Origin: Anaerolineae bacterium
GTDB lineage: Bacteria > Chloroflexota > Anaerolineae > J102
Length of the DNA stretch: 36,882 bases
Reading direction: 5' to 3'
Assembly: GCA_015485435.1 (NCBI GenBank)
Contig: WFTO01000222.1
Span: forward strand, 1 to 36,882
Part shown: in pieces, positions 13,987-34,512 of the stretch
Layout of the letters: each line of letters begins with the position of its first letter
How positions within the stretch are numbered: position 1 is the first letter of the stretch
Notes under the pieces: generated by a model
The model's database searches: none
What the model was told of the DNA's origin: nothing
The model's input: the letters and a program-made list of their open reading frames with translations, nothing else
Position numbers and translations under genes: made by a program

Positions 13987-14622
13987 TCAATCCTCCGTCA
14001 ATAAGCCCAACACCAGAGAGCGGGTGAGTGTTCCCAACAGACGATAGTGGGAGGTGCTGGCATTTTCGGCGAGCTGACGACCAAAATCGGGCAGCCAACG
14101 AGCGAGATGATTGCGGATGAAATACTGCAAAGCACTCTCAACAGCGGGATCTGGGACGTTGGCATTGGTGCGCAGCAACGCGCTCAGACAGGCCAGCTCC
14201 ACACCTGCATGATCCGGCGCATCCAAATGCAGCCAGTGTTCATCCATATGCAAAGTGGCAGGATCGAAACTCACAGACGCGTAAAAGGCGGCCACCTGAT
14301 GGGTGATGGGGCCCCATAGACGGCGGGTGCGCTGAGCCGATTCGTAAGGAGGTAGATAGCGCCCCGAAACAGGCACGAAAAAAAGCGCGTCGTAATCCGC
14401 CCTCAAGTCGGGCAAAGGGTCCGCCTCGTTTGAGAAATCATCAGTGAGGCCCAGCCCCTCATGCAACACTCCGATGGCCTCCGTGAAAGCGATCGTCAGT
14501 CTGCCATTGGGGCGATGAAGATACATGGCAGCCAGCATATCCGCGGCCCGAGCGTAAAAACGTTGTTCGTGTTGATTCATAGTCATGAGAACCATCGAGG
14601 CCAGGCCGCCAGACTCTGCCAA
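13987..14622 (-). CDS. TorD/DmsD-family molybdoenzyme maturation chaperone
   Basis: 211 aa, adjacent to ttrA; LRADYDALFFVPVSGRYLPPYESAQR...WGPITHQVAAFYASVSFD...HLDAPDHAGVELACLSALL typical of TorD-like chaperones. Confidence 0.88.
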   Translation of the reverse strand: MAESGGLASMVLMTMNQHEQRFYARAADMLAAMYLHRPNGRLTIAFTEAIGVLHEGLGLTDDFSNEADPLPDLRADYDALFFVPVSGRYLPPYESAQRTRRLWGPITHQVAAFYASVSFDPATLHMDEHWLHLDAPDHAGVELACLSALLRTNANVPDPAVESALQYFIRNHLARWLPDFGRQLAENASTSHYRLLGTLTRSLVLGLLTED

Positions 14623-14657: not shown

Positions 14658-17600
14658 TCAGATTTTTTCGACTTTGACGGGGATTGCCTGTCGAGCATTG
14701 GAGCCGACCACAAAGTCAGCCAGGGTGGAAAATCCTTTCCGCGAGGGATCGGCAATGCCCAGGAGGTTGCTGGCGACGCCTTTGCCTCGCAAACCGCTGG
14801 CGTGCCACACTTTGTTCTCAATGGTCTCATCTCGGGCTCCCAGTCCCCAGTGACCATAGCCATGTTCAATGCCCACAGTACCGGGCCGAATGCCTTTGCG
14901 CACCGAAATCACACCTTCGACGCTGCCGCCAGGACTGGTGACCCGCACCCGATCGCCGCTACGCAAACCAAGCTTGATCGCATCACTTTGATGCATGACG
15001 ATGGCATTGCTGGGTTGTAATGCGGAAAGTCGTGGCGCACCTATGGACGGCGGAGACATCAATTGCGATTTTGTGGAGACCATTTTGAAGGGCCATTCCG
15101 AAGGAGGATACACTTCATCGATGGGGGTCTCATCAGCGAAAACAGGCTCTCGCCAGGTGGGAACGCCGACGAAGCGTTTACCGTTCATGCTGTTACGAGT
15201 CGTGCCCAATTTCTCATTGTAAATTTGTAGGGGTTTGCCGTAGCGATGAGTGAGCCAGTCACCTTGATACGCGTACTTTTCATCCTCAAAACGACCGCCA
15301 CGAGCCAGCACGTAAGCAACCTTGCGCTGTTCTTCCGGCTTGAGCACTGAAGTGATCTTGTCCCATATGCGCTCCACCCCCGTGAGCTGAAGTTCTTCAT
15401 CTGAAATATCGGGGACGGGTTCTTTGTCGAAGGCGGTATTGGCCGTAATACGCAGGAACCAATCTTCGGGATGGTTGAGTGGATGCAGGTTGCCATCCGC
15501 ATCAGGGATGGCGTCATCACCGAATCCAGGTAGCCCCATCTTCCTGGCTAGGGCGATGAGAAAGCTTTCCATACAAATGGGATCGCCATCAGGGGTTTTG
15601 GCCAGCGGGGGTTCCACCACGGGCCAGCGCACTGAATTCACCTTGGTGAGATACGCGGCCCAAGGATGCGCGTTGCCCCAGGTTTCGTAGAGCACCGTGT
15701 CAGGGACAATGTAATCGGCATAGGCGCTGGTCTCGTTGATGAAGGGATCGATGGCAATGATTAGGGGAATGATTTTGGGGTCAGCCATGGCTTTTTTGGC
15801 GCTCTCAAACAGGCCCGATTGCCCATAGAAGGGATTCGTGTTCCAAAAGATCATGGCTTTGATGGGATAAGGGTAGCCGCTGAGCGCGCCGTTGAGATAT
15901 TCGGGCTGGATAGCCATAGAGAATGGATACCAGGGCGCTTGTGCGGGATAAGGGTTTTGTCCTGCATCCTTTTTTCTCTTGAACTCGGTTGTTTTCTCAT
16001 AAGGAAAGCCACGACGACTGATGCGCACACCTTTGGGTTTGACTTTGCCCTCGAATTTGACCAGATTGTAGCGCGGTTTGGGCCCAAGATCTGCATAATG
16101 TCCGCCTCCAGCGCTGGTTCCACCCTTCCAGTTGAGATTACCGACCAGAGCATTGAGCATAACGATGGCGTAGGCGGTGTAAAATCCGGTGCTGTGCATG
16201 GTGCCCCCGTGGCAGTCAGCCACTGCTTTGCGACCATGGCTGGTGAATTCGTCGGCCAATTCCTCGATGGTTTCTACGGGGATGCCGCATCCGGCGCTGT
16301 ATTCTTCCAACGTACGGGAAAAGGCTTCTTCTTTTAACAGCTGCAGGCTGGTTTTCACAGCGACGTTTTCGCCGTTGATCGCCACAACGCCATCGTAAAA
16401 GAGGAGGGCAGGACCTGTGGCGTTGGCGTGGGCGACAGGCTGTCCGCTAGCTTCGTCAATAACCACAAAAGTGTCATTTTCCCCCTCTTCGGCCAGCCCC
16501 ACCTGTGATCCGCGCAAGAATTTTCCGAAATCCGGTCGATCCTCGTCCACGATGACCAGATGGGTGGCATTGGACCAGCTAGGCTCACCCGCAGCTTTGG
16601 CAGCATCTGCGTTGGGTTGGGCCAGGAAATGCGCATTATACCGTTCGTTCTCCAATATCCAACGGATCATACCCATGGCCAGAGCTGCATCGGTGCCTGG
16701 CTTCACCGGCACCCAGCGGCTGCGCGCCCCTGCAGCAATACTATCAGCATTGGTCAACACCGGATCCACCACTACATAGGTGAGCTTGCCGTCGCTTCGT
16801 CCCTCGGCCACCATCTTGCCCGAACGTTTGAAGGGGTTGCCGGCGTTGGCGGGCGCCGTGCCGATGGTGAGCAAAAATTCGGTGTTCTTGAAATCGGGTT
16901 TGAGATGAGGATACTTCTTCCAATCATCCAGCAATGCGGCATAGCCCGCTCGCATGGAAAGACCGCAATTGCCACGATGCCCCGTGAAATTGATGCTGCC
17001 AAAAGAAAGCACAGAGAAGCGTTTGGCCAATCCCAATCGTCCTTCCTTGAAACCAGCGATGAAGGCGAGTTGATTGGCTTTAGGGCCCAACTCCGGCGCT
17101 TCAGGGTCGATAGGGGTCTCCAGGTCGCGAATGGCGCGTAAACCATCCACATGGCCTTCGCCAAACAGATCGCCACCTTCGACCACCTCTTCCAGCAGCT
17201 GCTCGAAGGAGATAGGTTGCCATTGGCCGCTGCCGCGTGGTCCCACTCGTTTGAGCGGTGTCAGCACCCGATAGGGATCATAGAGTTTGTCCAATACGGC
17301 GTTGCCCCGCCCACATGCGGTGGAACGATGCTTCATGCCCTTATCCTGGTAGGCGCTAAGCATCAGGTAACTTTCTTTGATGGGGGTCTGGTAATCTAAG
17401 AAGGGGTCAGCGGAGAGGATATGATAGGGATTGCCGCTGACGCGCAACACTTTACCTGTCTGTTTGTCCACTCGTACGCGCACACCGCACAGCGTCGTGC
17501 AACCAACGCACACCGTATTGGCCAGATATTGATCTGGGTTGGGAGTCACCTTGCCCGTCTGTCGGTCTACGGTGAATTCCGGCTTGGGCGCATTTCCCGC

Positions 17601-17738
17601 CAGGGGGTCCAGAGGGTGAGCGCCAGCCCACCAGCCCTTACTGATGCCCTTAAGCGTGCTGGCATAGCCTGCACCAAACACTGTGAGCGCACCAGCAGCG
17701 CCCAACGCTTTGAAGAAATCACGTCGATTAAGAGTCAT
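14658..17738 (-). CDS. ttrA: Tetrathionate reductase catalytic subunit A-like molybdopterin oxidoreductase (Tat-exported)
   Basis: 1026 aa; Tat signal NRRDFFK, CVGCTTLC...ACGRGNAV [4Fe-4S] motif, putative Mo-ligand Cys in GHRGNCGLSMRAG, TtrA-like ISFEQLLEEVVEGGDLFGEGHVDGLRAIRDLETPID; in ttrB-ttrC-ttrA order. Confidence 0.88.
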   Translation of the reverse strand: MTLNRRDFFKALGAAGALTVFGAGYASTLKGISKGWWAGAHPLDPLAGNAPKPEFTVDRQTGKVTPNPDQYLANTVCVGCTTLCGVRVRVDKQTGKVLRVSGNPYHILSADPFLDYQTPIKESYLMLSAYQDKGMKHRSTACGRGNAVLDKLYDPYRVLTPLKRVGPRGSGQWQPISFEQLLEEVVEGGDLFGEGHVDGLRAIRDLETPIDPEAPELGPKANQLAFIAGFKEGRLGLAKRFSVLSFGSINFTGHRGNCGLSMRAGYAALLDDWKKYPHLKPDFKNTEFLLTIGTAPANAGNPFKRSGKMVAEGRSDGKLTYVVVDPVLTNADSIAAGARSRWVPVKPGTDAALAMGMIRWILENERYNAHFLAQPNADAAKAAGEPSWSNATHLVIVDEDRPDFGKFLRGSQVGLAEEGENDTFVVIDEASGQPVAHANATGPALLFYDGVVAINGENVAVKTSLQLLKEEAFSRTLEEYSAGCGIPVETIEELADEFTSHGRKAVADCHGGTMHSTGFYTAYAIVMLNALVGNLNWKGGTSAGGGHYADLGPKPRYNLVKFEGKVKPKGVRISRRGFPYEKTTEFKRKKDAGQNPYPAQAPWYPFSMAIQPEYLNGALSGYPYPIKAMIFWNTNPFYGQSGLFESAKKAMADPKIIPLIIAIDPFINETSAYADYIVPDTVLYETWGNAHPWAAYLTKVNSVRWPVVEPPLAKTPDGDPICMESFLIALARKMGLPGFGDDAIPDADGNLHPLNHPEDWFLRITANTAFDKEPVPDISDEELQLTGVERIWDKITSVLKPEEQRKVAYVLARGGRFEDEKYAYQGDWLTHRYGKPLQIYNEKLGTTRNSMNGKRFVGVPTWREPVFADETPIDEVYPPSEWPFKMVSTKSQLMSPPSIGAPRLSALQPSNAIVMHQSDAIKLGLRSGDRVRVTSPGGSVEGVISVRKGIRPGTVGIEHGYGHWGLGARDETIENKVWHASGLRGKGVASNLLGIADPSRKGFSTLADFVVGSNARQAIPVKVEKI

Positions 17739-18952
17739 TGTACGCCTCCTTTGGGCAAAACAACAACTTGATCTTGAGCATCGAAAGCATCGTTTACAAC
17801 GTCATCTTCCGGTTCAGCCGCATCATAGTTGCGCCACGGCAAGAACCAGGTAAAAAGAATAAAAAGGAAAAGCCAGAACGCCCAGTTAGAAATCACCTGC
17901 ATTACCCCTTTGCTACCCCAAAATTCGGGGTGATATTGGTAAAACCCGGCTGTGGTCTTGGGAATCTCCTGACCCCCAATAACCGTGTCCCACCGAAACA
18001 ACCACACACCAGCGATGGTGACCAGCGCCGAAAGTATGAGGAGGGGACGGATGCGACGCAAGCGAGGAATGAGCATCACAAGGGCAGGGATCATCAGGGA
18101 AAGCACAATCTCAATAAGCACAGTCTCCGTGAAGCGCTCCCTAAACATGAAGCGGATGACCTCCAGATAGGAGCCATAGGAATAAAAGAAACCAATGCTA
18201 TACCAAAAGAGACGGATGGTAAGGTCGGTGATGATAGTCCAGCCCAACAATACGGCTAAGCGGTCGATGAGAGTCCAGTTAATGCGACCCTTCTCATTCC
18301 GCACCATAAGCCAGGTCAAAACCAACATAAAAGCGATACCGCTGACCATAGCCGATACCAGAAAGATAAGGGGCATAAGCGGAGTGTGCCACAAAGGCCG
18401 GGCCCGCACCACGCCCAGTATGTAGCCAGTGTAGCCATGCACCGCGATGGCGAAGGGAATGCCGATGGCTCCCAAAATGTAACTCCATTTGTGATCCCGT
18501 TTTTCGGTTTCGGATGTCACCTCATGAGAGCCCAGGGCCAGGAACGCATAGAATTTTTGTTTGCTGCCAGAAGCTTGCTGGGCTTTGCGGGCAAAACCGG
18601 CCCGAAATGCGTAGACGCCTTCCAGTGCGATAAGCAATGGATATGTCGTCAATAAAAAGACACCCCAACTCATAGGCGATGTGACATGGGTGTGATAAAA
18701 CAGGGAATAAAAACGCCCCTGCTGCTCCAAATCAGCGATCAGATTCAATGGAGCGGCTATCAGCACCGTAAAGGCCACGATGAGTGAGAGTTTGGCAATA
18801 GGACGATAGTGCTCATCGCCGAAGACATAGGTGAGGGCAGAAATGAGAAATGCGGCCGCACTCAGACCCGTAAAAAAGAAGTATTGGGGAATGGCTAAGC
18901 TCCAATCAACGCCATGGAGTGCGTTGATGATTTCAATAATGTACGGATTCAT
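17735..18952 (-). CDS. ttrC: NrfD/TtrC-like membrane quinol oxidase subunit
   Basis: 405 aa polytopic protein with NrfD-type features; overlaps ttrB and ttrA by 4 nt each. Confidence 0.87.
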   Translation of the reverse strand: MNPYIIEIINALHGVDWSLAIPQYFFFTGLSAAAFLISALTYVFGDEHYRPIAKLSLIVAFTVLIAAPLNLIADLEQQGRFYSLFYHTHVTSPMSWGVFLLTTYPLLIALEGVYAFRAGFARKAQQASGSKQKFYAFLALGSHEVTSETEKRDHKWSYILGAIGIPFAIAVHGYTGYILGVVRARPLWHTPLMPLIFLVSAMVSGIAFMLVLTWLMVRNEKGRINWTLIDRLAVLLGWTIITDLTIRLFWYSIGFFYSYGSYLEVIRFMFRERFTETVLIEIVLSLMIPALVMLIPRLRRIRPLLILSALVTIAGVWLFRWDTVIGGQEIPKTTAGFYQYHPEFWGSKGVMQVISNWAFWLFLFILFTWFLPWRNYDAAEPEDDVVNDAFDAQDQVVVLPKGGVQ

Positions 18953-19698
18953 GGTTGCGCCAGCTCCTTTTTCAGCTCTTCTTCGGTCCAGGGAACGGGT
19001 TCGCCGTTGACCTTGGCCTGAAGATAATCACTCAGACCGATGTAAAAAACCCGAGGATCGGTGCCCATTTCTGGTTTAAGCACCTGTGTGGCATGTTCTT
19101 TCAACAGTTGATTGATCTCGCTATTGGGATCGTTAAGATCGCCAAAAATGCGAGCTCCACCCACACAGGTCTCCACACAGGCGGGCAGCAAACCCGCCTC
19201 AGTGCGATGCACGCAGAATGTGCATTTGTCTGCCGTGTGGGTTTCAGGGTTGATGTAACGAGCATCGTATGGGCAGGCCTGCACACAATAAGCGCACCCG
19301 ATACAAACTTCGTTGTCCACCACCACTATGCCATCGCCACGTTTGTATGTGGCCTGCGTGGGACACACCTCCACGCAGGGGGGATTTTCGCAATGGTTGC
19401 ATAGGCGGGGCAGGGTGGCGCGACGGGCCGTATCGCCAAAATCGATCTCGTAGGTGGAAACGATTGTGCGATGGTAGCCCAGGGGCACATCATTTTCCAT
19501 GGAGCAAGCGACGCTGCACGCTTGGCAACCGATACACTTGCGCAGATCGATCAGCATGCCCCAACGGTGGCTGCTTTCACTGGGTTCATCAGGGTTGGCC
19601 GCCATCGCCTCCTGTTTTGGAACCATGACGGCCGTTGTCGCGGCAACAGCAGCCCCGCCTACCATGAATTTAAGAAATTCGCGGCGGTCTGTCTTCAT
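18949..19698 (-). CDS. ttrB: TtrB-like 4Fe-4S ferredoxin subunit (Tat-exported)
   Basis: Tat signal DRREFLK; four Cys clusters CIGCQACSVAC, CNHCENPPCVEVCP, CIGCAYCVQACPYDARY, CTFCVHRTEAGLLPACVETC. Confidence 0.9.
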   Translation of the reverse strand: MKTDRREFLKFMVGGAAVAATTAVMVPKQEAMAANPDEPSESSHRWGMLIDLRKCIGCQACSVACSMENDVPLGYHRTIVSTYEIDFGDTARRATLPRLCNHCENPPCVEVCPTQATYKRGDGIVVVDNEVCIGCAYCVQACPYDARYINPETHTADKCTFCVHRTEAGLLPACVETCVGGARIFGDLNDPNSEINQLLKEHATQVLKPEMGTDPRVFYIGLSDYLQAKVNGEPVPWTEEELKKELAQP

Positions 19699-19725
19699 AC
19701 AACTCCTCCTGAAAAGATGGAAACA

Positions 19726-19793
19726 AGAACTATTGCTCCACCTATTGTAAGATTTCCCACTATCAGAACTCTAAATATTCCCCCTCAAGTTCT
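19726..19793 (-). promoter_or_regulatory. Candidate ttr promoter/operator region
   Basis: AGAACT at 19726-19731 and 19765-19770, inverted copy AGTTCT at 19788-19793; minus-strand TACAAT (19749-19744) as possible -10 without a good -35. Confidence 0.45.
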
Positions 19794-19823
19794 AAAAATT
19801 TTCTATAAAATTCAGATTGTTGG

Positions 19824-20516
19824 CTATTCGCAACGCAAGCTGTATCCCACGCCCGGATAAGTGACGATCTCTGCATCCTTGGCGTGAGCCAACTTTTGCC
19901 GTAGTCGACCAATATAAATATGCAAATATTGATTGTTGCCCCGATACTCATCCCCCCACACACCAGCGAGCAGATAATCGTAGGTGAGCACCCGGTTCTT
20001 ATGGCGTAGCAACAACGTCAGCAGGTTGAATTCGGTGGGGGTTAGGCGGATTTCTTCATGTCCAATCCAACCCTGATGTGAGGCGACATCCACCGTCACG
20101 TCGCCCGCGCGCAACGGCACATCGGGCGGGGATGCGGTCGCACTCGACGCCCGGCGCAAGACGGCGCGCACGCGGGCCAGCAGCTCCTGCAGCCCGAATG
20201 GTTTGGTCAAATAGTCATCTACGCCGCTATCTAGCAATTCGACTTTTTTGGCTTCATCGCTCAGTGCGCTGAGAACGATGATGGGGGTGTGGCTCGATCG
20301 CCGCACAGCAGCCACAACCTGGGCGCCATCCACTTTGGGCATCATCAGATCAAGGATAATCAAATCAGGCGTTTCAGAGGCCAGCATATCCAGAGCGGCC
20401 TGACCGTCGCGAGCAATGAGCACGTCGTATCCCCGCGCTTTGAGGTTGACTGACACGAATTTAATGACGCTGGGATCGTCATCAACAAGGAGGATGCGGG
20501 TTTTGGCGGCTGTCAT
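19824..20516 (-). CDS. OmpR/PhoB-family response regulator
   Basis: Receiver RILLVDDDPSVIKFVSVNL...DLIILDLMMPKVDG...YLTKPFGLQELLARVRAVLRR and winged-helix LTPTEFNLLTLLLRHKNRVLTYDYLLAGVWGDEY...YIGRLRQKL. Start set at MTAAKTRI. Confidence 0.95.
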   Translation of the reverse strand: MTAAKTRILLVDDDPSVIKFVSVNLKARGYDVLIARDGQAALDMLASETPDLIILDLMMPKVDGAQVVAAVRRSSHTPIIVLSALSDEAKKVELLDSGVDDYLTKPFGLQELLARVRAVLRRASSATASPPDVPLRAGDVTVDVASHQGWIGHEEIRLTPTEFNLLTLLLRHKNRVLTYDYLLAGVWGDEYRGNNQYLHIYIGRLRQKLAHAKDAEIVTYPGVGYSLRCE

Positions 20517-20565
20517 ACAGACGTTTTTGAAAGAAATGGATGGAAGGATGGCAACGTGATGCGTT

Positions 20566-22380
20566 TCAATGGATGCAAGGCAGTGTAAAATGAATGGTCG
20601 AACCTTCCCCAATCTGACTTTCGGCCCAAATGCGGCCGCCATGCGCTTGAACCAGCCCCTTACAAATGGCCAGCCCAAGCCCTGTTCCCGAGGTTTCGGG
20701 ATGATCGCCGCGATAGAAACGTTCGAAGAGATGAGGCAGCGCCTCAGGGGGAATGCCTGGGCCTTTGTCGTGAATATCGACCTGAATCATGTCATCCACT
20801 TTGTGAGCCGTGATGGTGATGGGGGCGCCTTCGGGCGTGTATTTGGTGATATTCTCGATGAGATTGCGCAGGATGTCAATGATCCGCTCTCGATCGCCGT
20901 CGATGGGAGGGAGATCATCAGGGATATCGACGTGCACCGGGCGTTCTCCTAACAAAGGTTGCATGCGTTCCAATGTCACCGAGACGAGGTGATGCAGGCT
21001 ACACGGGCCCCGTTGCAGGCGAAGGGTGCCCGCCTCCAGTTGCGCCATATCAAGCAACTGGTTCACCAGATCGCGTAGCTTATCCGCCTCTTCCACAATG
21101 GTCCGCAGAAAATCTTGTTGGGTGTCCTTGTCCCACGTCACATCTTCCAAAAGCAACGTTTCGGCAAATCCCTTGATGGAGGTGAGGGGTGTGCGCAATT
21201 CGTGGGAAACGGTCGCCAAAAATGCACTTTTCAACCGGTCCGCTTCCTGAGCTTGCTCCAGAGCGACCTGCAACTTTTCCGTACGCACCGCGACGAGGCC
21301 TTCCAATCCGCTGGCATACTGTTGCAACTCGGCAACCATTTGGTTGAATGCTCGGGCCAATTGGCCGATCTCATCCTGACGCTGAATGGCGCTCCGTCGA
21401 GAGAGATCGCCCTGGCCCACTGCGATGGCATCTTCGGAGAGTAGCGTGATGGGATGGGTGACGCTACGGGCGATGAACCATCCCGGAATGGCGCTGGCAG
21501 TCATGGCCAACATCACCCCCAAAAGCAGCCAGTAGAAAAGTGTGCGCACCGGCGCCAGGGCCTCGGACGCCGGCTGCTCCACCACCACCCACCATCCCAA
21601 TGCAGGAATGGCCTGGGCATTGCCCATCACGGGACGGTTCCAGGCGTCTCGATAGCGCGAGGGTAAGGGGGCGCCAGAGCGCAATGCCTGCATGAGAGGA
21701 GCCTCATCGATCCGCGTTTCGGCCAGTACAAGACTGTAATCGGGGTGGGCGAGTAGACGCCCAGAGGCATCAATAATATACATGACGCCCCCTTTTCCCA
21801 CCCGAAACGCGGTGACTTGATCCCACAATCCCCGCAGGCTTATGACGGCCATGAAATAGTGCTTAGGGCGTTGGCCGTATGGATCGCGACATGGCACGAA
21901 CACCGTCAGCAGTGGGGCGCCATTGGCAGAAAGTTGGACGGGCCCCCAGCTTACATCGCCATTCTTCGCTTTTAAAAACGCTTCATTGCCCGACAGATTC
22001 CGTAAATCCTCAGACGTAATAAGACGAATGCGAGAGACCCGGTTCATCTCCCGACCAGTTGCATCTAACAGGCTGATTTCTTGCGCCAAGGGGGCTTGAT
22101 GTATCAGGTGGCGTAAAATGCGATCTCGTTCAGCAGGCGAAACGCGACTCCAATCGGTGATTTCTGCGGAAGCCTGCAACAAAGAGACCACGTGCGTCAG
22201 CCTGGTTTCAATAAGAAGGGCCGCTCGTTTGGTCATTTCGCGCTGTGCAGCGCTGGCCGCCTGAACTTGCTGGGTGTAAAGGGTGTACAGGGAAAAACCG
22301 GCCAGCGCCAACATGGGCAGCAACGCGGCTAAGGCAGCCTGCACGATCATCCGAGTCTCTAGCCGTCGCCAGCGACTCAC
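20566..22380 (-). CDS. Sensor histidine kinase (N-terminal TM, dCache-like sensor, HAMP, HisKA, HATPase)
   Basis: GTG start; H-box FLATVSHELRTPLTSIKGF, N-box DILRNLIENITKYTPEGA, DKGPGIPPEALPHLFERFYR, TSGTGLGLAICKGLVQAHGG; extracytoplasmic ~240 aa between two TM helices. Confidence 0.95.
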   Translation of the reverse strand: MSRWRRLETRMIVQAALAALLPMLALAGFSLYTLYTQQVQAASAAQREMTKRAALLIETRLTHVVSLLQASAEITDWSRVSPAERDRILRHLIHQAPLAQEISLLDATGREMNRVSRIRLITSEDLRNLSGNEAFLKAKNGDVSWGPVQLSANGAPLLTVFVPCRDPYGQRPKHYFMAVISLRGLWDQVTAFRVGKGGVMYIIDASGRLLAHPDYSLVLAETRIDEAPLMQALRSGAPLPSRYRDAWNRPVMGNAQAIPALGWWVVVEQPASEALAPVRTLFYWLLLGVMLAMTASAIPGWFIARSVTHPITLLSEDAIAVGQGDLSRRSAIQRQDEIGQLARAFNQMVAELQQYASGLEGLVAVRTEKLQVALEQAQEADRLKSAFLATVSHELRTPLTSIKGFAETLLLEDVTWDKDTQQDFLRTIVEEADKLRDLVNQLLDMAQLEAGTLRLQRGPCSLHHLVSVTLERMQPLLGERPVHVDIPDDLPPIDGDRERIIDILRNLIENITKYTPEGAPITITAHKVDDMIQVDIHDKGPGIPPEALPHLFERFYRGDHPETSGTGLGLAICKGLVQAHGGRIWAESQIGEGSTIHFTLPCIH

Positions 22381-23381
22381 GGCGTCTCCTCCGGGAAGAA
22401 CTGGTCCCCCAGTCGCACTGTATCCTCATCGAGATGAAGTCCCATCTCGCGGGCGGTTTGCATATTGATGCTAAATTCGGGTGTGTCAGGAAATTCCACG
22501 GGGATATCTCCCGCCGGAACGCCACTGAGCGCTTTGTCAACCAAACGCGCAGCCTGATACCCCATGCTTTGGAAAGAGGCGCCATACGCGGCCAGTCCTC
22601 CTGCGGCTACAATGTCTTGATTGAGGCCCATAATGGGAATACGCGCTCGTGATGCAGCGGGCAGCAGTACGGTGGGCAAGGCGTTCTCTAGAGTGTAGCA
22701 AGGAGTGACGAGGATGGCGTCGGCCATGCCCGGTTGTAGTGCATTGGCAAAGCGTTCCAGCGATGCCTCACCATCCACGGGCTGAGGGATCAGGGTGAGA
22801 TTTAGTCGTGTGGCTGCCCATTGCGCTTCCCTCAATGCAGCCAGGCTTGGCGTGATATTGGGACTGTACAACACCAACACGCGTTGCGTTGCAGGCAACA
22901 ACAAGGTCAAAAATTCCAACCGCTTGCTGGTGATCTCGATGTAGCCATTGTCAACGCCGGTCATGTTGTGACCTGGATGCTGGAAACTTTCCACTACACC
23001 CCAGTCTACGGTCGCGGCCACGCCGATGAATACGATGGGTGGGCCATCATTCGTTGCCAGCTTTTTGGCTGTTTGCGTCTCCACCCCACCGAGTGTAACG
23101 AGGACATCGGGATGCTGCATTAGAGCCTGTTGCGTTAGATCGGGTAAGCGGTCCCCTTGATTTTCGGCGTTGAATATCGTCACAATCAGATTTTCGCCTG
23201 GTCGGTACCCGCGATCGGCCAGTCCCTTTTCCAAACTCTCCGCCTTAACCAATCGCGATTGCCCTGAAGCGATCACAGCAAGATGGTAAACGGCGGAGGA
23301 TGACGTGGCGGATTGGGTGCATCCAGAGAAAAGGAATGTCGCCAACGTGACAAGCGCAACAAGAAAATAGCGAAATGTCAT
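22377..23381 (-). CDS. ABC_sub_bind (TrpX-like) substrate-binding lipoprotein, no associated permease or ATPase
   Basis: Lipobox LFSGC; LEKGLADRGYRPGENLIVTIFNAENQGDRLPDLTQQALMQHPDVLVTLGGVETQTAKKL..PPIVFIGVAATVDWGVV resembles PF04392 family; 4-nt GTGA overlap with the kinase gene. Confidence 0.88.
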   Translation of the reverse strand: MTFRYFLVALVTLATFLFSGCTQSATSSSAVYHLAVIASGQSRLVKAESLEKGLADRGYRPGENLIVTIFNAENQGDRLPDLTQQALMQHPDVLVTLGGVETQTAKKLATNDGPPIVFIGVAATVDWGVVESFQHPGHNMTGVDNGYIEITSKRLEFLTLLLPATQRVLVLYSPNITPSLAALREAQWAATRLNLTLIPQPVDGEASLERFANALQPGMADAILVTPCYTLENALPTVLLPAASRARIPIMGLNQDIVAAGGLAAYGASFQSMGYQAARLVDKALSGVPAGDIPVEFPDTPEFSINMQTAREMGLHLDEDTVRLGDQFFPEETP

Positions 23382-23999
23382 GAAACGAAAGCATCCATTC
23401 AGATGAGAAGGATGATGATTTATTTTAGCGCATATAGCACACCAAGACTATTTTTCCATGATCAAAACCAAATGGATAGCAGCGCGCAGGGGACGCAGAG
23501 GGCATTACGCCCAACATTCCACAGTCAGAAACATTCCGGGATGCGAGGACCTCAGCGAATTTCAGACATACCGCCTGCTGCGATGCGATCCACGTTTTTG
23601 ATGGCAGAAATTCTGAAAATCCTTCGCAGCAAGGCATGATGCCTGAAAAAACCGTGATATCTCCTCGGCAATATCTCAACGGAGCGAAGTGCAGAGGGCG
23701 ATGTGCAACAGGGAAGTAATGGACGTTGCTGATGACGTATATGGCGCTGCAGCTGACAGCGTATGGGCTAGTCTGGTTGATTGCAGAGCACAGAAGCGCC
23801 CATTGAGGATCATGGGACATTTGTACCAGTTGCGAGGGGTGATTTGTCTTAGAAAAAATAAGCCCCATTACTCACGACAGCGCATCATCACGCTGCTAAG
23901 ATGAACCTATGGGGATTGACGTCGCATGGACGCTGTCTATGTTCGCGGCAATCCTCCCAATCGCCATTTTTTCAAATGCTTTACCCTACGAGGAGGTTG

Positions 24000-25709
24000 A
24001 TGATGAACACATGGACGCGTCAGCGTTTTGTTTTGCTTGGAATTATCGCCCTGGCAGTTGTGATGTTGGCCGCTTGCGGAGGATCATCGACGCCAGCACC
24101 AGCCGAGCCCACCCAAGCGCCGCCACAAGCAACGAAGGCAGAAGCGCCGGCAGCTACACAGGTTCCAACAGAGGCCTCTGCGGCAAAGAGCCCTGTCGCG
24201 TTGCGGGTGACGTTCGCCTGGCCAACCTACATCGATCCCGCGGTGGGCAACGACTTTTCCAGCTCTGCGGCTCTGGTCAACCTATATGACTCATTGGTCT
24301 TTCCTGCCAAAGATGGCGGCGTCATTCCCTGGCTGGCGGAATCCTGGGACACCTCGGAGGATGGCCTGACCTGGACATTTAAATTGCGGCAAGGCGTGAA
24401 GTTTCATGATGGAAGTGAACTGACCGCGAGCGATGTCGTCTATAGCATGAAGCGATTGCAAACGATCGGCGAAGGCTATGCCTATATGTTCGAAAACGTC
24501 GCCGATGTGTCCGCCCCCGATGACCAGACCGTAGTCTTTACCCTGTCGAAACCTAGTGGTCTGTTCCTCTTGAGTCTGGTGCGACTTTACGTCTTAAATG
24601 AGGACCTTGTCAAAGCCAATACCGCTAAGAAGGGTTCATATGGTGAAAATGGCGATTACGGCAAAGATTGGTTGTTGACTCATGACGCCGGTTCAGGTCC
24701 TTACATGGTCAAAGAATTCCCTCTTGAAGAATATTTGCTTATGGAAAAGAACGATGATTGGTGGGGAGATTTCGTAGAGAATGCGCCAGATGAAGTGCGG
24801 TTTATCGCCGCCACCGAGACCGCAACCGTGCGCACCTTAATGGCCGACCGTCGTCTGGAGATCAGCGATCAATGGCAGACCGTGCAGGCATTGAAATCGT
24901 TGGATGCCATTGACGGCATTTCTGTGGCTGCCATCCCTACGATGACGGAATTTTATTTCATGATTAATACCAAAATCCCCCCCACAGATGATGTCCACTG
25001 CCGTCGCGCCATGTCCTACGCCTTCGATTACGCCACCGCTGTGAGCCTGGAATGGGAGGGCACGAAACAGTCTCAAGGCCCAGTCCCCGCCACCCTGGCC
25101 GGCCACAATCCTGATGTGTTCGTCTTCCCCCATGATGTGGACAAGGCAAAAGAGGAATTGGCCCAGTGCAAATATGCCGACGAGCTCGACCAATATCCGG
25201 TGGAAATTCACTGGATCTCCGAAGTGCCCGATGAAGAAAAGTTTGCCTTGCTTTTCCAGTCGAACATGGCGGATATTGGCATGCCGGTCAAAGTCGTTTC
25301 CACGCCCTGGCTGAGCGTGGTGGAGAACATGAGCAAACTGGAAACCAGCCCCCACATTGTGACCATTTACGTGGGCGCAGATCTGCCCGACGCCGGAGTG
25401 ATGCTGAATCAGCGATACAGCTCCGCCACCGCCGATCAATGGCTCCAGAACGAATGGCTGCTGGACAAGGACTTCGACGCCCGGATCGCGGACGCCCTCG
25501 CCACCGTGGATCAGAACGAACGATACGCCAAATATTACGAATTGCAGGATTACATCGTAGATCTGGCCCCTTCCCTGTTCGTCTATGACCAGGTGGAAAA
25601 GCACGCGGTGCAGGATTACGTGGATTGGCCTGCAATGAAAGGAGAAATGAGCCCGATGCAGGGGTATTACTTCTTTGCTCCGCAAATTGGTGTGAACCCA
25701 ACGCAGTAA
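24000..25709 (+). CDS. ABC transporter substrate-binding lipoprotein, peptide/nickel type (SBP_bac_5)
   Basis: Lipobox LAACGG; LAESWDTSEDGLTWTFKLRQGVKFHDGSELTASDVVYSMKRL; strong Shine-Dalgarno GAGGAGG. Confidence 0.94.
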   Translation: MMNTWTRQRFVLLGIIALAVVMLAACGGSSTPAPAEPTQAPPQATKAEAPAATQVPTEASAAKSPVALRVTFAWPTYIDPAVGNDFSSSAALVNLYDSLVFPAKDGGVIPWLAESWDTSEDGLTWTFKLRQGVKFHDGSELTASDVVYSMKRLQTIGEGYAYMFENVADVSAPDDQTVVFTLSKPSGLFLLSLVRLYVLNEDLVKANTAKKGSYGENGDYGKDWLLTHDAGSGPYMVKEFPLEEYLLMEKNDDWWGDFVENAPDEVRFIAATETATVRTLMADRRLEISDQWQTVQALKSLDAIDGISVAAIPTMTEFYFMINTKIPPTDDVHCRRAMSYAFDYATAVSLEWEGTKQSQGPVPATLAGHNPDVFVFPHDVDKAKEELAQCKYADELDQYPVEIHWISEVPDEEKFALLFQSNMADIGMPVKVVSTPWLSVVENMSKLETSPHIVTIYVGADLPDAGVMLNQRYSSATADQWLQNEWLLDKDFDARIADALATVDQNERYAKYYELQDYIVDLAPSLFVYDQVEKHAVQDYVDWPAMKGEMSPMQGYYFFAPQIGVNPTQ

Positions 25710-25734
25710 GGGAAGGCTCCCTCATTTCAAGCAT

Positions 25735-25788
25735 CTGGTGCATCGCATCCTGTGCGGTCCTCACCCCTACATGGGTGCGATGCACCAG
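25735..25788 (+). repeat. Long stem-loop between SBP and permease genes
   Basis: Perfect 13-bp inverted repeat CTGGTGCATCGCA (25735-25747) / TGCGATGCACCAG (25776-25788), extendable inward to about 16 bp with one T-G pair; no T-tract follows. Confidence 0.8.
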
Positions 25789-25820
25789 CCAGATTCAGAT
25801 CGTCTTACGGGACTTTCTTT

Positions 25821-26849
25821 ATGAAACTTCTGCCTTTTATCGGCAAACGGGCTTTTCATGCCATTTTCGTATTGCTCGGCCTGTCGATCGTCATCTTCGT
25901 GATCGCACGGGTGATGCCTGGCGATCCCGCTCGGGTTGCTGTGGGAGCTCACGCACCCGATTGGGTCGTGCAGGATATCCGGGAGCAGATGCACCTTGAT
26001 GAACCATTGGTCGTGCAGTATTTCTACTGGCTGCGAGATGCGTTGCATGGCGATTTCGGCGTTTCCCTGGTGACGCGACGAGATGTTGCCCAAGATATTA
26101 TCGAATTTTTCCCAGCCTCCTTGGAGCTCGCACTCTTTGCCCTGCTGATATCCGCCGGGTTGGGCATCACCTTAGGCACGCTCTCGGCCTGGCACAAAGA
26201 CAAATTCGTCGATAATCTCGTGCGGGTGCTTTCCTACATGGGAGTGGTCACGCCTTCCTTTGTCTTCGCCATCCTGTTTCTGCTGCTTTTCGGTTATCTG
26301 CTGCACTGGTTTCCAACCCTGGGGCGTTTGAGTGAAGATGTGGCCCGACCTCCCACCGTAACCGGTTTTATGACGGTGGATTCTCTGTTAGCGGGCGATA
26401 TGGTCGCCTTTTGGGATGCGTTGAAGCATTTGGTGTTGCCTGCCTTGGCCCTGGCCATGGGTTCCATGGCTCAGGAGGCGCGCATCACCCGCGCCAGCAT
26501 GTCGGAAAATCTGAACAAGGATTACATCGCGGCCAGCCGGGCCTTCGGCATTCCAGAACGGTATGTTATGGGACGATTTCTACTCAAGCCATCGCTGATC
26601 CCCACCATTTCCATCATCGGTCTGGATTTTGCCGCCAACTTCAGCAACGCGTTTTTGGTGGAACTCATTTTCGTGTGGCCCGGGCTTTCTCGTTACGGCA
26701 TGAACGCGATCCTTCGCAAGGATTTGAACGCCATTTCCGCGGTCATCCTGGTGTTGGGCGTCGTGTTCATTATCGTGAACATCATCGTCGATATCACCGT
26801 CGCCAAACTCGATCCTCGCATTGGTTTACGCTCCGCCCGAAGTGAATAA
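25821..26849 (+). CDS. Peptide ABC transporter permease, DppB family
   Basis: MKLLPFIGKRAFHAIFVLLGLSIVIFVIARVMPGDPAR; EAA loop region ASRAFGIPERYVMGRFLLKPSLIP. Confidence 0.95.
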   Translation: MKLLPFIGKRAFHAIFVLLGLSIVIFVIARVMPGDPARVAVGAHAPDWVVQDIREQMHLDEPLVVQYFYWLRDALHGDFGVSLVTRRDVAQDIIEFFPASLELALFALLISAGLGITLGTLSAWHKDKFVDNLVRVLSYMGVVTPSFVFAILFLLLFGYLLHWFPTLGRLSEDVARPPTVTGFMTVDSLLAGDMVAFWDALKHLVLPALALAMGSMAQEARITRASMSENLNKDYIAASRAFGIPERYVMGRFLLKPSLIPTISIIGLDFAANFSNAFLVELIFVWPGLSRYGMNAILRKDLNAISAVILVLGVVFIIVNIIVDITVAKLDPRIGLRSARSE

Positions 26850-26875
26850 CGCTTCATCCCGATACAACTAGGCTC

Positions 26876-27802
26876 ATGACCCAACAGACGAACCTCTCGT
26901 TTTCTGGTTTGAACGCCCAACAAATCAAACAGCTCGAACGTGAAAGTCGCCGCGAGCATTGGGGACGGGCGTGGTACAAATTTTCCCGGAACTCCCTTTC
27001 CATCGTGGGTGCGGTCACCATTTTGATCATTGTGTTTCTGGCTATTTTCGCCCCCTATGTCACGCCTTATCCCGATCATGCCACCAAACCCTTCACCGAC
27101 TTCGCCAACGCCAGCCAGCCGCCAAGCCTGGAACATCTCTTTGGCACCGACGAGATCGGTCGGGACATTTTCAGCCGCACCATTTTCGGATTTCGGTTCT
27201 CCCTCAGCATGGGCGTCATCGTCCTCTCGCTGGTGGTGCCGGTGGGCGTGCTGCTGGGACTGATTGCCGGTTACTACCAGGGAACGCGCATCGACAGCAT
27301 CATCATGCGCACCACCGATATTTTCCTTTCGGTGCCCTCCCTGATTCTTGCCCTGGCCATTGCTTCGGTGCTGGAGCCCAATCTCTCTCACTCGATGATC
27401 GCCATTTCGTTGATGTGGTGGCCCTGGTACACGCGCCTTGTCTATGGCCAGACCACCGCGCTGCGCAACGAATTTTTCGTCAGCTCCGCAGAGGTCACAG
27501 GCGCCAGTACGGCTCATATTCTTTTCCGCGAGATCCTGCCTAACATCCTTTCGTCCATCTTTACCAAGATGAGCCTGGACATGGGATGGGTGATCATCAT
27601 CGGCGCATCGTTGAGCTTTGTGGGCCTGGGCGTGCAGCCTCCCAAGCCAGGCCTGGGCACCATGGTGGCCAGCGGCGCCAAATACCTGCCCGATCAGTGG
27701 TGGATTTCCCTCTTCCCCGCTCTGGCTATCGTGGTCATCGTGCTGGGTTTCAACCTGTTGGGCGATGGTCTGCGCGACCTCTTCGCCGCGGAGGAAGTGT
27801 GA
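26876..27802 (+). CDS. Peptide ABC transporter permease, DppC family
   Basis: LEHLFGTDEIGRDIFSRTIFGFRFSLSMG...; EVTGASTAHILFREILPNILSSI. Confidence 0.95.
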   Translation: MTQQTNLSFSGLNAQQIKQLERESRREHWGRAWYKFSRNSLSIVGAVTILIIVFLAIFAPYVTPYPDHATKPFTDFANASQPPSLEHLFGTDEIGRDIFSRTIFGFRFSLSMGVIVLSLVVPVGVLLGLIAGYYQGTRIDSIIMRTTDIFLSVPSLILALAIASVLEPNLSHSMIAISLMWWPWYTRLVYGQTTALRNEFFVSSAEVTGASTAHILFREILPNILSSIFTKMSLDMGWVIIIGASLSFVGLGVQPPKPGLGTMVASGAKYLPDQWWISLFPALAIVVIVLGFNLLGDGLRDLFAAEEV

Positions 27803-27803
27803 C

Positions 27804-28832
27804 ATGACCAGACAACCATTGCTCGAGATCGAAAACCTGCGGGTGGGGTTCAAGGTCTATGGCGGTGAATTGCACGTGCTGGACGGCGTCGATTTCGTCG
27901 TGAACAAGGGCGAAAAGGTGGGACTTGTCGGAGAAACAGGTTGCGGCAAGACCACGACCATGAAAGCGATCTTGCGCATTCTGCCCCAACCACCTGGCTT
28001 CATCGAAAGCGGCGTCATTCGATTTCACGGTCGCGACTTAATGCAAGTCAAGGACCGAGAAATGAGACACATTCGGGGCCAAGGCATTTCGATGATCTTC
28101 CAGGACCCCACCGCCGCGCTCAATCCCGTCTTTACCATCGGCCAGCAGCTGGAGCCGGTCATCAAATACGCCTCACCCGAAAATCGACGCCTACCGCGCA
28201 AGGTCATCCGCCAAAAAGCCATTCAAGCCCTTCGAGACGTCTCCCTGGCCGATCCCGAACGCCTGCTCAAAGCCTATCCCGTTCAGCTCAGCGGGGGCAT
28301 GCGCCAGCGCGTGTGCATCGGCATGGCGCTGGCCACCAATCCAGAGCTGCTCATCGCTGATGAACCTGGCACCTCCCTCGACGTGACCATTCAGGATCAG
28401 GTGCTGCGGCTGCTGCATCAATTGGTGGAAGAGCGGGACAGCTCCGTCATCCTCATCACCCACACCCTGGGCATCGTCCGTCAGATGACCGATCGGCTGT
28501 ATGTGATGTATGCGGGCAATATGGTGGAAACCGCGCCCACGCGTCGCATCTTCACCAACCCCCTGCATCCCTACACCCAGGGCTTAATGGACGCGGTGCC
28601 CAAATTGACCGGAGGCGGCGTGGCCCACGGCATTCCCGGACGCATCCCCGACTACCTCCATCCTCCCACCGGATGCCGCTTCCATCCCCGTTGCCCCCAC
28701 GCCATGGACATCTGCCGTCAGAAGAAACCGTCGTTTTACACCGTCGAGGAGGCGCACCAGGTCGCCTGTTTTCTCTATGACACATCATCCGGGGCCGACT
28801 CCGCGCCCGCCCGCAAGGAGGCGCTGGCATGA
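27804..28832 (+). CDS. Peptide ABC transporter ATP-binding protein, DppD family
   Basis: Walker A GETGCGKTT, signature LSGGMRQR, Walker B LLIADEPGTSLD, C-terminal GCRFHPRCPHAMDIC. Start set at MTRQPLLEIEN. Confidence 0.95.
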   Translation: MTRQPLLEIENLRVGFKVYGGELHVLDGVDFVVNKGEKVGLVGETGCGKTTTMKAILRILPQPPGFIESGVIRFHGRDLMQVKDREMRHIRGQGISMIFQDPTAALNPVFTIGQQLEPVIKYASPENRRLPRKVIRQKAIQALRDVSLADPERLLKAYPVQLSGGMRQRVCIGMALATNPELLIADEPGTSLDVTIQDQVLRLLHQLVEERDSSVILITHTLGIVRQMTDRLYVMYAGNMVETAPTRRIFTNPLHPYTQGLMDAVPKLTGGGVAHGIPGRIPDYLHPPTGCRFHPRCPHAMDICRQKKPSFYTVEEAHQVACFLYDTSSGADSAPARKEALA

Positions 28833-29821
28833 CCGAGGATATTCTCACCATCACCGATCTGAAAAAGCACTTTGTCATTGGTCACAACGGCCTGATCCAC
28901 CGCACGCCCATAACGGTCAAGGCGGTGGATGGCGTCTCCCTGAGTCTACGGAAGGGAGAGACCTTTGGCCTGGTAGGCGAATCGGGCTCGGGCAAGAGCA
29001 CCGTCGCTTACATGACCGTGGGCATGTATCGCCCCACCTCGGGCACGATTCGATTTCGCGGTGAAGACCTGTTCGATGGCTCCAAGGAACGCTCGAAACG
29101 CCATAAAAAAGAGATTCAAATCGTCTTTCAGGACCCTGGTTCCTCTCTGAACCCGCGCCGCAGCATCAAAGACATCCTGGACCTGCCTTTGCGTATCCAT
29201 CAGCCGCAAAAGAATCGGTTGGAAGAGATCGTGCGTCTGCTCAGTCTGGTCGAGCTTCCTCCAGAATACATGTACAAGTACCCGCGGCAGTTGAGTGGCG
29301 GAGAGAAACAGATCGTCGCCATCGCTCGCGCCCTAGCTACGGACCCATCCATCATCGTCCTCGATGAACCCACTTCCGCGCTGGATGTCTCTATTCAGGG
29401 CAAGGTCATCAATCTGCTCATCCGCCTGCAACAGGAATTCGAGCTCTCCTTCCTGTTCATCACCCACGATCTCAGCCTGATGCGGAACGTCGCCTCGCGG
29501 GTGGCCATCATGTATCTAGGCAAGATCTGCGAGGTCGCGGACGCCGCAGAATTTTTCGAAAACCCGCTGCATCCCTACACCCAAATGCTGCTCTCCTCGA
29601 TTCCGGTCCTGACCGAGGAGGAGGAAGCCCTGAAACCGGTCAAGGTCGAATCCCGGGGCGAGATTCCCAGCCCTGTGAATGTGCCGCCAGGATGCAGCTT
29701 TCACTCCCGATGCCCCTATGCCGAAGCCATCTGCAAACAGGTCGATCCCGAGATGAAAGAAATTCGCCCCGGACATACGGTGCGGTGTCATCTCTTTGCA
29801 TCTGACAGGAGTCAAGCTTAG
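28829..29821 (+). CDS. Peptide ABC transporter ATP-binding protein, DppF family
   Basis: Walker [52 protein letters not shown]; 4-nt overlap with upstream gene. Confidence 0.95.
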
Positions 29822-29906
29822 AGGTTTCGCAATCACCAAGGTCGGCGCAAGCGTTGTTTCATTATTTTGTAACGGTTTCATCCTCTTGCGAGTGTGGAGT
29901 TCCCAA

Positions 29907-30710
29907 ATGCAGCCCATCAAAGTCATGTTTTTAAATCCCGTTGGCAGCGATGCTTACGACGCTTTCATGGCGGATTGGATCAAGGCGTACAAATATCCAA
30001 ACACGGAAGCGCACGTGACCTCCTTTGATCCCGCGCGGATTGGCCCCATCACCAATCTGGAGTATCGAACTTACGAAGCCATGGTCACGCCCGAAATCGT
30101 CCGCGCCACCCACCAGGCCGCGCAAGAAGGCTTCGACGCTCTAGTCATCGGCTGTTTTTATGACACCGCGTTGCTTGATGCACGGGAGATATCGGGAGAG
30201 ATGGTGGTCGTAGCGCCTTGCCATGCCTCCATCGAGACCACCTTAACCCTGGCCAATACCTTCTCCATCATCGTGGGGCAATACAAGTGGGTCCATCAAA
30301 TGCACAATACTGTGCGACATTATGGCTTTGCGGACAAACTCATGTCTTTCCGGCATGTGGATATGAACGTGGTTGAATTTCAACAGGACCATGAACGGAC
30401 TCGAAACCGCTTAGTGGCGGCTGGTCGAAAGGCGGTGGAAGAAGACCATGCCGAGGCACTCATTTTGGGATGCACCCTTGAAACTGGGTTTTACAAAGAA
30501 CTGCAGGCCGAGCTTGGCGTTCCCGTCATCGATCCATCGATTGCCGCATTCAAGGCGGCTGAACACGCTGCACAATTGAAACATTTGTGTGATTGGCGGC
30601 CTAGTCGCATGTGGAGTTGTGAAGCGCCTCCCGAATGGGAACTGGCAGAATTCGCCCTGTTTCGTCAGCCCTACCAGTTTGGCAACAGAATCGTGGTTCC
30701 ACGGACATGA
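29907..30710 (+). CDS. Asp/Glu/hydantoin racemase family protein
   Basis: Two candidate catalytic Cys motifs, ALVIGCFYDTALLDAREI and ALILGCTLETGFYKELQ; start set at MQPIKVMFLNPVGS. Confidence 0.88.
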   Translation: MQPIKVMFLNPVGSDAYDAFMADWIKAYKYPNTEAHVTSFDPARIGPITNLEYRTYEAMVTPEIVRATHQAAQEGFDALVIGCFYDTALLDAREISGEMVVVAPCHASIETTLTLANTFSIIVGQYKWVHQMHNTVRHYGFADKLMSFRHVDMNVVEFQQDHERTRNRLVAAGRKAVEEDHAEALILGCTLETGFYKELQAELGVPVIDPSIAAFKAAEHAAQLKHLCDWRPSRMWSCEAPPEWELAEFALFRQPYQFGNRIVVPRT

Positions 30711-30779
30711 AAACCCATTGCATCACCGATAACGCATTCAATCATTCTTATCATCGCAACCTTCTCAGGAGTAAGCCCC

Positions 30780-32849: not shown

Positions 32850-34512
32850 ACATTACGATCCCATTACCATCGAAATCATCCAGAATTCGGTGCAGGCCGC
32901 AGCCGATGAGATGTTTGCGGCGCTGAGAAGAACCGCCATGAGCGCCATCATCTACGAAGTGCTGGACATGGGCACCGGCATCACCGATCGCAACGGCGAG
33001 ATCGCAGGCTCAGGAGCGGGCATTCCTGCGTTTGTGGGCGTGCTGGATAAAACCGTCAAACGCATTCTGGCCAAATTCGATCAACCCGGCGATATCGAGC
33101 CCGGGGACGTCTTCATCACCAACGACCCGTACAACGGCGGCGTCACCCATCTGAACGACATGGTGTTGACCATGCCCGTGTTCGCCGATGGGCAGCTCAT
33201 CGCCTGGACCGCGAATATCGCTCACTGGAATGATGTGGGCGGCATGGTGCCGGGCAGCATGTCCACCGAAGCCACCGAGATCTTTCAGGAGGGCATGATT
33301 TACCCAGGCGTAAAACTGATCTCGCGCGGGGAGCCCATCCGCTCGGTATTTGACATCCTGACCGCCAATTGTCGCATGCCCGATTATCTCATCGGCGATC
33401 TATGGGCGGGCATCGCCTCGGTGCGGGTGGGCGAGCGCCGCATCTTGGAGATCGCCAACAAATATGGAGTGGATGTTTTCCTTCACGCCCTCGATGAGTA
33501 CATGGATTATGGCGAACAGGTCATTTTGAACGCGCTGAAGAAGCTGCCCAACGGCGTTTATTCGCTGGAAGAGGCGCAGGATGACGGGCAGATTTGGAAG
33601 GTGACGGTGGAGATCACCGATAACGAGTTTATCGTCGATCTACGCGACAACCCTGATCAAAATCCTGGCCCCTTCAATATGAGCGCGGATGACGCCATCA
33701 TCGCCTGTCAGATTGCGCTGAAGAACGTGACAGTGCCCGACCGCATCGCCAATGGCGGCACCTTCCGGCCATTGAAGGTGAAATTGCGACATGGCAGCAT
33801 CTTCAATCCCAAATACCCCGCGGCCATGGGCATTTATTACGAGCTCAGCATCCGCCTGCACGATCTCATCATCCGCTGCCTGGCCGAAAACATGCCCGAT
33901 CAGCTTCCTGCGGGTGGATTCGCCTCCATTTGCGGCACGTTGTTCGGTGGTATCCATCCCGACACAGGGCGGCCCTATGCGGTGATCGAACCTGAATTGG
34001 GCGGATGGGGCGGCTCTCCGCGCGGAGATGGCATGCCCGGCCAGTTCTCCGCCTTCCACGGCGAAACGTACAACTGCCCCGCGGAGGTGGCCGAGGCGCG
34101 GTATGGCGTTACCGTGGACTACCTCAGCTTCCACGATGAGGATGGCGGCGCGGGGCTGCACCGTGGCGGCAAAGGCGTCCGTATCGACTATCGCATTCGC
34201 TCCGACAACGCATGGCTTACGGTGGCGTACACCCGAGACAAGGTGCCGCCATGGCCCCTGAAGGGCGGGCAGCCCGGGTCTAGTAACCACGTCATCATCC
34301 GGCGCGCCGATGGCACCCAGGAGCGCCATGCGGTGGTCAGCGGCCTTACGCTGAATAAGGATGACGTGATTCAGATTATGACCGCCACCGGCGCGGGATG
34401 GGGCGATCCCATGGAGCGTGACCTGGAGCTGGTCAAAGAAGACCTCAAGAACGGATACATCACATTAGAGCAGGCCAACAAATATTATGGCCTGGATAAA
34501 CGATCCGCATAG
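32842..34512 (+). CDS. Hydantoinase B/oxoprolinase family, HyuB-type subunit
   Basis: 556 aa; DPITIEIIQNSVQAAADEMFAALRRTAMSAIIYE, GDVFITNDPYNGGVTHLNDMVLTMPVF, GGWGGSPRGDGMPG; 8-nt overlap with hyuA-type gene. Confidence 0.95.
   Translation: MPKHYDPITIEIIQNSVQAAADEMFAALRRTAMSAIIYEVLDMGTGITDRNGEIAGSGAGIPAFVGVLDKTVKRILAKFDQPGDIEPGDVFITNDPYNGGVTHLNDMVLTMPVFADGQLIAWTANIAHWNDVGGMVPGSMSTEATEIFQEGMIYPGVKLISRGEPIRSVFDILTANCRMPDYLIGDLWAGIASVRVGERRILEIANKYGVDVFLHALDEYMDYGEQVILNALKKLPNGVYSLEEAQDDGQIWKVTVEITDNEFIVDLRDNPDQNPGPFNMSADDAIIACQIALKNVTVPDRIANGGTFRPLKVKLRHGSIFNPKYPAAMGIYYELSIRLHDLIIRCLAENMPDQLPAGGFASICGTLFGGIHPDTGRPYAVIEPELGGWGGSPRGDGMPGQFSAFHGETYNCPAEVAEARYGVTVDYLSFHDEDGGAGLHRGGKGVRIDYRIRSDNAWLTVAYTRDKVPPWPLKGGQPGSSNHVIIRRADGTQERHAVVSGLTLNKDDVIQIMTATGAGWGDPMERDLELVKEDLKNGYITLEQANKYYGLDKRSA

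Follow-up and report, generated by a model that had tools for sequence, protein, structure and literature searches.

A stretch of DNA from an Anaerolineae bacterium (contig WFTO01000222.1 of assembly GCA_015485435.1; all 36,882 nucleotides of it are called the window below) carries three adjoining genes, for a substrate-binding lipoprotein (SBP), a sensor histidine kinase (HK) and a response regulator (RR), next to the tetrathionate reductase genes ttrB, ttrC and ttrA (ttrBCA). We propose, with a probability of roughly 0.62, that this triad serves ttrBCA as a dedicated three-component system, which senses the respiratory substrate (tetrathionate or a related S-oxyanion) and controls these genes. 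The triad is real and conserved and is very likely the dedicated regulator of ttrBCA, and we consider it likely that the SBP is a partner of the kinase. The identity of the ligand, the contact between SBP and kinase, and activation rather than repression are what we infer beyond this. The genes of the triad are as follows.

22377-23381, minus strand: orphan SBP, PF04392, class I binding-protein type; proposed ligand-binding component
20566-22380, minus strand: HK, with a transmembrane segment, periplasmic dCache_1, a second transmembrane segment, HAMP, HisKA (SHELRTP) and HATPase_c
19824-20516, minus strand: OmpR/PhoB-type RR, Response_reg and winged-helix Trans_reg_C, with its ATG at 20516

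The initial annotation, made from the sequence alone, had described a lipobox-bearing SBP gene overlapping the kinase gene by GTGA, an RR gene about 49 nt further on, and co-orientation of all three directly upstream of ttrB-ttrC-ttrA. This arrangement was confirmed: the SBP stop and the HK start share the four nucleotides 22377-22380, the gap between HK and RR is 49 nt, and transcription on the minus strand runs in the order SBP, HK, RR, ttrB, ttrC, ttrA and a TorD-like chaperone. Domain searches assigned the lipoprotein (lipobox FSGC, Cys21) to PF04392 (E=2e-45) and the kinase ectodomain to dCache_1 (E=1.9e-16), in agreement with the families first suspected. A sequence search of the ectodomain against the PDB returned marginal Cache matches only (E of at least 0.04).

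Co-occurrence of the triad with tetrathionate reductase

We surveyed 396 genomes of the class and 400 of the phylum. In the class sample, relatives of the SBP at 51% identity or more were present in just six genomes (G000, G010, G011, G013, G034 and G311), and true TtrA was found in exactly the same six, five of them scoring at least 648 bits against NF011567 and the sixth (G013) represented by an 82%-identical truncated end. The five remaining genomes of the genus have neither a close SBP nor a true TtrA. The order SBP-HK-RR-ttrB-ttrC was intact in 5/5 readable loci, with ttrA next wherever the contig continues; the G013 contig breaks inside the RR gene. The lipoprotein was kept in all ttr triads, and most retain the 4-nt overlap between the SBP and HK genes. 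Whether the triad accompanies ttrBCA in other genomes had been left for such a survey; in the class sample close SBPs and true TtrA coincide in six out of six genomes, and no copies of the SBP clade independent of ttr were found there. The phylum sample yielded no additional close SBP and one distant, partial TtrA-like protein. No adjacent SBP-HK-RR triad appeared in the (incomplete) annotation of plasmid ttr loci of Azospirillum, Pseudomonas and Paracoccus.

A conserved block before ttrB

The intergenic DNA before ttrB (125-1344 bp) is largely unalignable except for one ungapped block, which in the window comprises the following elements.

19744-19807, minus strand: predicted ttrB promoter/operator block, 64 bp
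minus strand: half-sites TATAG at 19807, TTTAG at 19796, TTTAG at 19775 and GATAG at 19764; -10 box TACAAT at 19749-19744

The half-sites lie at offsets 0, 11, 32 and 43 (spacing 11-21-11 bp), and 15 nt separate the start of the last one from that of the -10 box. In the relatives the block reads TATAG, TWTAG, TWTAG, GATAG and then TACAAT or TATAAT (TATGCT in G311), and it adjoins ttrB even where 1.3 kb separates RR from ttrB. The best 64-column block contained 26 invariant columns, compared with a mean of 5 and a maximum of 8 in shuffles. The pattern TWTAGN6TWTAGN16TWTAGN6GATAG matched exactly in 5/337 class genomes, once in each and only before ttrB (the sixth ttr genome, G013, is unassembled at this position); there was no exact match in the remaining 332 genomes, and a reversed-pattern control was unmatched. 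Allowing two mismatches produced no extra site in the 11 genomes tested.

Activators of the PhoB/OmpR family bind across the -35 position, to paired direct repeats of 11 bp. The block has this form at the level of sequence pattern (tandem ~11-bp direct repeats overlapping -35) and fits a PhoB/OmpR-type operator that would link the RR to ttrBCA. The recognition-helix region of the RR (QYLHIYIGRLRQKL) is nearly invariant across the ttr set, and the RR would be the protein that binds the block. Scanning with a generic sigma-70 model gave no promoter ahead of ttrB, a result compatible with a regulator box substituting for the -35 element. Since the triad lies upstream of the box, ttrBCA would have its own regulated promoter, and the sensor genes are presumably transcribed from ahead of the SBP gene. 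Because the operator occurs only at ttrB, the signal appears to be dedicated to tetrathionate reductase. Taken together, gene order, co-occurrence in the class sample and the shared ttrB operator support the split-sensor architecture attached to ttr that the initial annotation had put forward.

A wider module of PF04392 proteins and dCache receptors

The pairing of an SBP with a dCache receptor extends well beyond ttr. At 20/26 other PF04392 loci, the gene after that for the SBP encodes a transmembrane receptor with a sensor region like that of the window kinase (19 by direct match). We therefore rejected the idea that an SBP with a dCache kinase is unique to ttr; the class survey shows a widespread module, and the ttr set is a single clade within it. 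Distances among SBPs and among receptor sensor regions were correlated (Mantel r=0.87 for n=26, and 0.78 when the ttr clade is left out; no permutation reached the observed value), which fits a functional pair, a correlation of the kind that shared inheritance also yields. In the SBP tree, transport-type proteins formed one clade (three with PDB structures, one with an adjacent permease-like gene), most dCache-linked proteins fell in another, and the six ttr-linked SBPs formed a single clade (98/97). The sister of this clade is an SBP of genome G314 beside a dCache-PAS-PAS-GAF protein, with no ttr genes in the stretch fetched around it. The ttr SBPs are thus one branch of a broad module, which suggests that ttr drew on a sensing module of general use.

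It is possible, at about even odds, that split sensors of the LuxPQ kind, each a PF04392 SBP with a dCache receptor, form a large class in Chloroflexota that has not been described. One branch would have evolved an S-oxyanion pocket and become a tetrathionate sensor of an origin independent of TtrS, acting through an OmpR-type RR and a novel TWTAG operator. No signalling role for PF04392 was apparent from the titles and abstracts that name the family, in a search with most subscription journals outside its reach.

Ligand, proposed mechanism and alternatives

The SBP is similar in sequence to PDB entries 3LKV, 6HNI and 3LFT. The PF04392 relatives CD0873, VC_1101 and SP1069 have been crystallised with Tyr, Phe and Trp, whose amino and acid groups are held alike (PMC6816091). 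The DN motif of these aromatic-amino-acid binders is replaced by SF or CY in 6/6 ttr SBPs, with loss of the conserved Asp, and the TDP/SDP motif of amino-acid binders is replaced by ADT in the ttr clade and by AAT in the window. Within the clade, the window SBP stands apart in its TDP-equivalent motif: it reads VAATVD, with Ala in place of the Asp of the other five members (VADTV), and its pocket may therefore differ even from those of close relatives. Sequence comparison also revealed residues new to the ttr clade, among them an SGQSRL loop with Arg43, as well as Lys46 and Arg57. The loss of an acidic residue would suit a dianion, and tetrathionate itself has, in our estimate, a slightly better than even chance of being the ligand.

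According to the proposed mechanism, the lipoprotein, anchored outside the membrane, would bind tetrathionate or a close S-oxyanion and, in either the loaded or the unloaded state, would dock on the kinase at its periplasmic dCache domain, by analogy with LuxP and the Cache-superfamily domain of LuxQ. The OmpR-type regulator, phosphorylated by the kinase, would then bind two tandem 11-bp direct-repeat sites (TWTAG half-sites) over the -35 position of ttrB and activate ttrBCA. Several points weigh against this reading. Where structures of PF04392 proteins have been solved, the ligands are aromatic amino acids; the kinase has a dCache domain of its own and could bind the signal directly; and four of the six triad genomes belong to one genus, so that only about three independent lineages are represented. 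Shared inheritance could underlie the correlated distances, and the AlphaFold2 models, built from two-row alignments, are too poor for the pocket or the interface (pLDDT, the predicted local distance difference test, of 53 for the SBP and 48 for the kinase ectodomain).

If the dCache domain of the kinase does sense the signal or some other cue, the triad would still control ttrBCA and the lipoprotein would be accessory or scavenging rather than signal-carrying. As a fold, dCache_1 binds ligands in its own right, and the kinases of the set match it, though only some pass the Pfam cut-off. Against a bystander role, the SBP adjoins a dCache-type receptor at most of the other loci, with correlated distances, and is kept in every ttr triad, mostly with overlapping genes; we regard this alternative as unlikely. 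The lipoprotein might instead sense another compound, such as the thiosulfate product, another oxyanion (e.g., selenate) or an organic ligand, with ttr induced by a proxy cue. The substrate specificity of TtrA is not proven by sequence, the pocket motifs of the ttr clade depart from those of amino-acid binders with no known oxyanion motif in PF04392, and ArrX binds phosphate too (PMC5908839). Nonetheless, an operator unique to ttrB makes the signal one dedicated to the enzyme, and a proxy cue seems improbable as well.

With regard to a relict origin, the SBP could be an orphaned component of a TrpXYZ-type amino-acid importer lying beside the kinase by chance, as the ligands of its crystallised relatives would allow (PMC6816091). 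We consider this very improbable. No cognate ABC (ATP-binding cassette) permease or ATPase gene was found next to the SBP gene, whether in the window or in the readable flanks of relatives, at any triad locus, nor in conserved synteny, and the genome encodes no second PF04392 protein. Members of PF04392 of the transport type fall in a clade of their own and keep the DN motif that the ttr clade has lost, and the position beside the kinase is conserved in all relatives. The nearby dpp-type transporter (23901-29821) is divergent from the triad, has its own SBP_bac_5 protein, as had been anticipated, and does not adjoin the triad in relatives with a readable upstream flank.

If the proposed sensor is real, tetrathionate sensing would have evolved independently here, in a system with three separable parts and a short, defined operator. 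PF04392, a family known for transport proteins, would thereby gain a role in signalling.

Tetrathionate reductase and neighbouring genes

Downstream of the triad, the window contains the following genes.

18949-19698, minus strand: ttrB, iron-sulfur subunit (PRK14993 TtrB 327.7 bits, below the cut-off of 416)
17735-18952, minus strand: ttrC, NrfD-type membrane subunit (domain and family searches)
14658-17738, minus strand: ttrA, molybdopterin catalytic subunit with a twin-arginine translocation (TAT)-like signal (family searches and identity to annotated ttrA)
13987-14622, minus strand: TorD/DmsD-type chaperone (family searches; syntenic in L084, L085 and L088)

The match of TtrA to NF011567 is full-length and scores 1179 bits, below the curated cut-off of 1750 and seven times the score of the next-best family (PhsA, 163 bits). 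Its identity to the annotated ttrA of an E. coli plasmid is 45% across the entire protein, and an Azospirillum protein is up to 54% identical; the enzyme is best read as a tetrathionate reductase. A second TtrA-like family is common in the class (~80 genomes; e.g., L113, G000:C228, 120-4490); its members score up to ~500 bits against NF011567, share ~40% identity with the window TtrA and could be miscalled as tetrathionate reductase. TtrB also scored 255.7 bits against the NCBIfam model DsrO, above its cut-off of 200, and the TtrB model still fits better. TtrB-like proteins in Azospirillum, Pseudomonas and Paracoccus records carry the DsrO annotation, a name that is apparently misleading for them. 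In G034, ttrC (L088, 5772-6830) encodes a divergent NrfD protein of 32% identity, flanked by orthologous ttrB (77%) and ttrA (81%), with SBP, HK and RR orthologous too; this suggests that the membrane subunit was replaced.

On the other side of the triad, positions 23901-34512 hold the divergent dpp/opp-type ABC transporter followed by a racemase-like gene and two hydantoinase-like genes (HyuA/HyuB type by sequence impression), a cluster that probably serves hydantoin or pyrimidine-derivative utilisation.

Other putative binding-protein-first sensors in the class

The genome of the window also encodes a PF12974 binding protein, an sCache/HisKA_3 kinase (4-nt open-frame overlap) and a GerE regulator (L108, G000:C389, 140-6929). 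Directly after them come a gene for an arsenate reductase of the ArrA type (1306 bits against NF041714) and an Fe-S gene, as in an ArrXSR-like system. Two unrelated X-S-R designs therefore coexist in one genome, which offers a natural comparison of repeatedly invented binding-protein-first sensors for respiratory molybdoenzymes. A similar set lies at a contig end near a molybdoenzyme fragment (L109, G000:C68, 5285-7690), with the end of a PF12974 binding protein, an sCache/HisKA_3 kinase and a GerE regulator. In G125, a TtrA-like enzyme (NF011567, 561 bits) is preceded by a PF12974 lipoprotein, an sCache/HisKA_3 kinase and a two-component regulator (L089, G125:C164, 2338-10928), which makes a second binding-protein-first design beside a TtrA-like enzyme.

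Comparison with known systems

In TtrSR of Salmonella and Shewanella, as in the window, the kinase and regulator genes adjoin ttrBCA and a binding-protein-type fold is proposed as the sensor; the regulator acts at the ttrB promoter (PMC5408782). In the window the adjacency to ttrBCA is supported by synteny, and a conserved block before ttrB is a putative operator at which the RR may act. However, TtrS has a PhnD-like PF12974 domain fused to its kinase (4e-31, with HisKA, in the reference TtrS on E. coli plasmid pKL53-L), whereas the window kinase has dCache_1 and no PF12974, and the reference TtrR is a Response_reg-GerE (LuxR/GerE-type) protein, in contrast to the Trans_reg_C regulator of the window. 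The sensor parts and the DNA-binding domain of TtrSR are thus not common to the window triad, and the initial claim of an architecture unlike canonical TtrSR, with a separate PF04392 lipoprotein, stands.

AioXSR, ArxXSR and ArrXSR likewise place a separate binding protein, an HK and an RR beside a molybdoenzyme operon, and their binding protein senses the substrate of the enzyme (PMC5908839). Their X component is of class II and related to PhnD, not to PF04392, and the window SBP has no PF12974 match. In TorT-TorS-TorR, a respiratory-substrate binding protein, a kinase and a regulator also control a molybdoenzyme operon. TorR is of the OmpR type, and TorT belongs to a different binding-protein family. 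The TorS sensor is all-helical, not dCache (PMC8534201). TrpX, CD0873 and VC_1101 are transport-type members of the same Pfam family as the window SBP in a separate clade; the permease and ATPase of TrpXYZ importers and their TDP/DN motifs are both lacking in the ttr-linked SBPs.

LuxP has a class I binding-protein fold. In LuxP-LuxQ, the binding protein signals via a double-Cache-superfamily domain of the kinase, which does not bind the ligand directly (PMC8534201, PMC4822843). The domain types of the window proteins fit this arrangement, in which the SBP would signal through the kinase ectodomain. LuxQ-periplasm is a different Cache family and its model is unmatched by the window kinase, which is not of the LuxQ family; LuxP is not a PF04392 protein, binds AI-2 (autoinducer-2) and serves a quorum-sensing output. 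By analogy, the mechanism of the window triad would most resemble that of LuxPQ, and its genetic logic that of ArrXSR and AioXSR.

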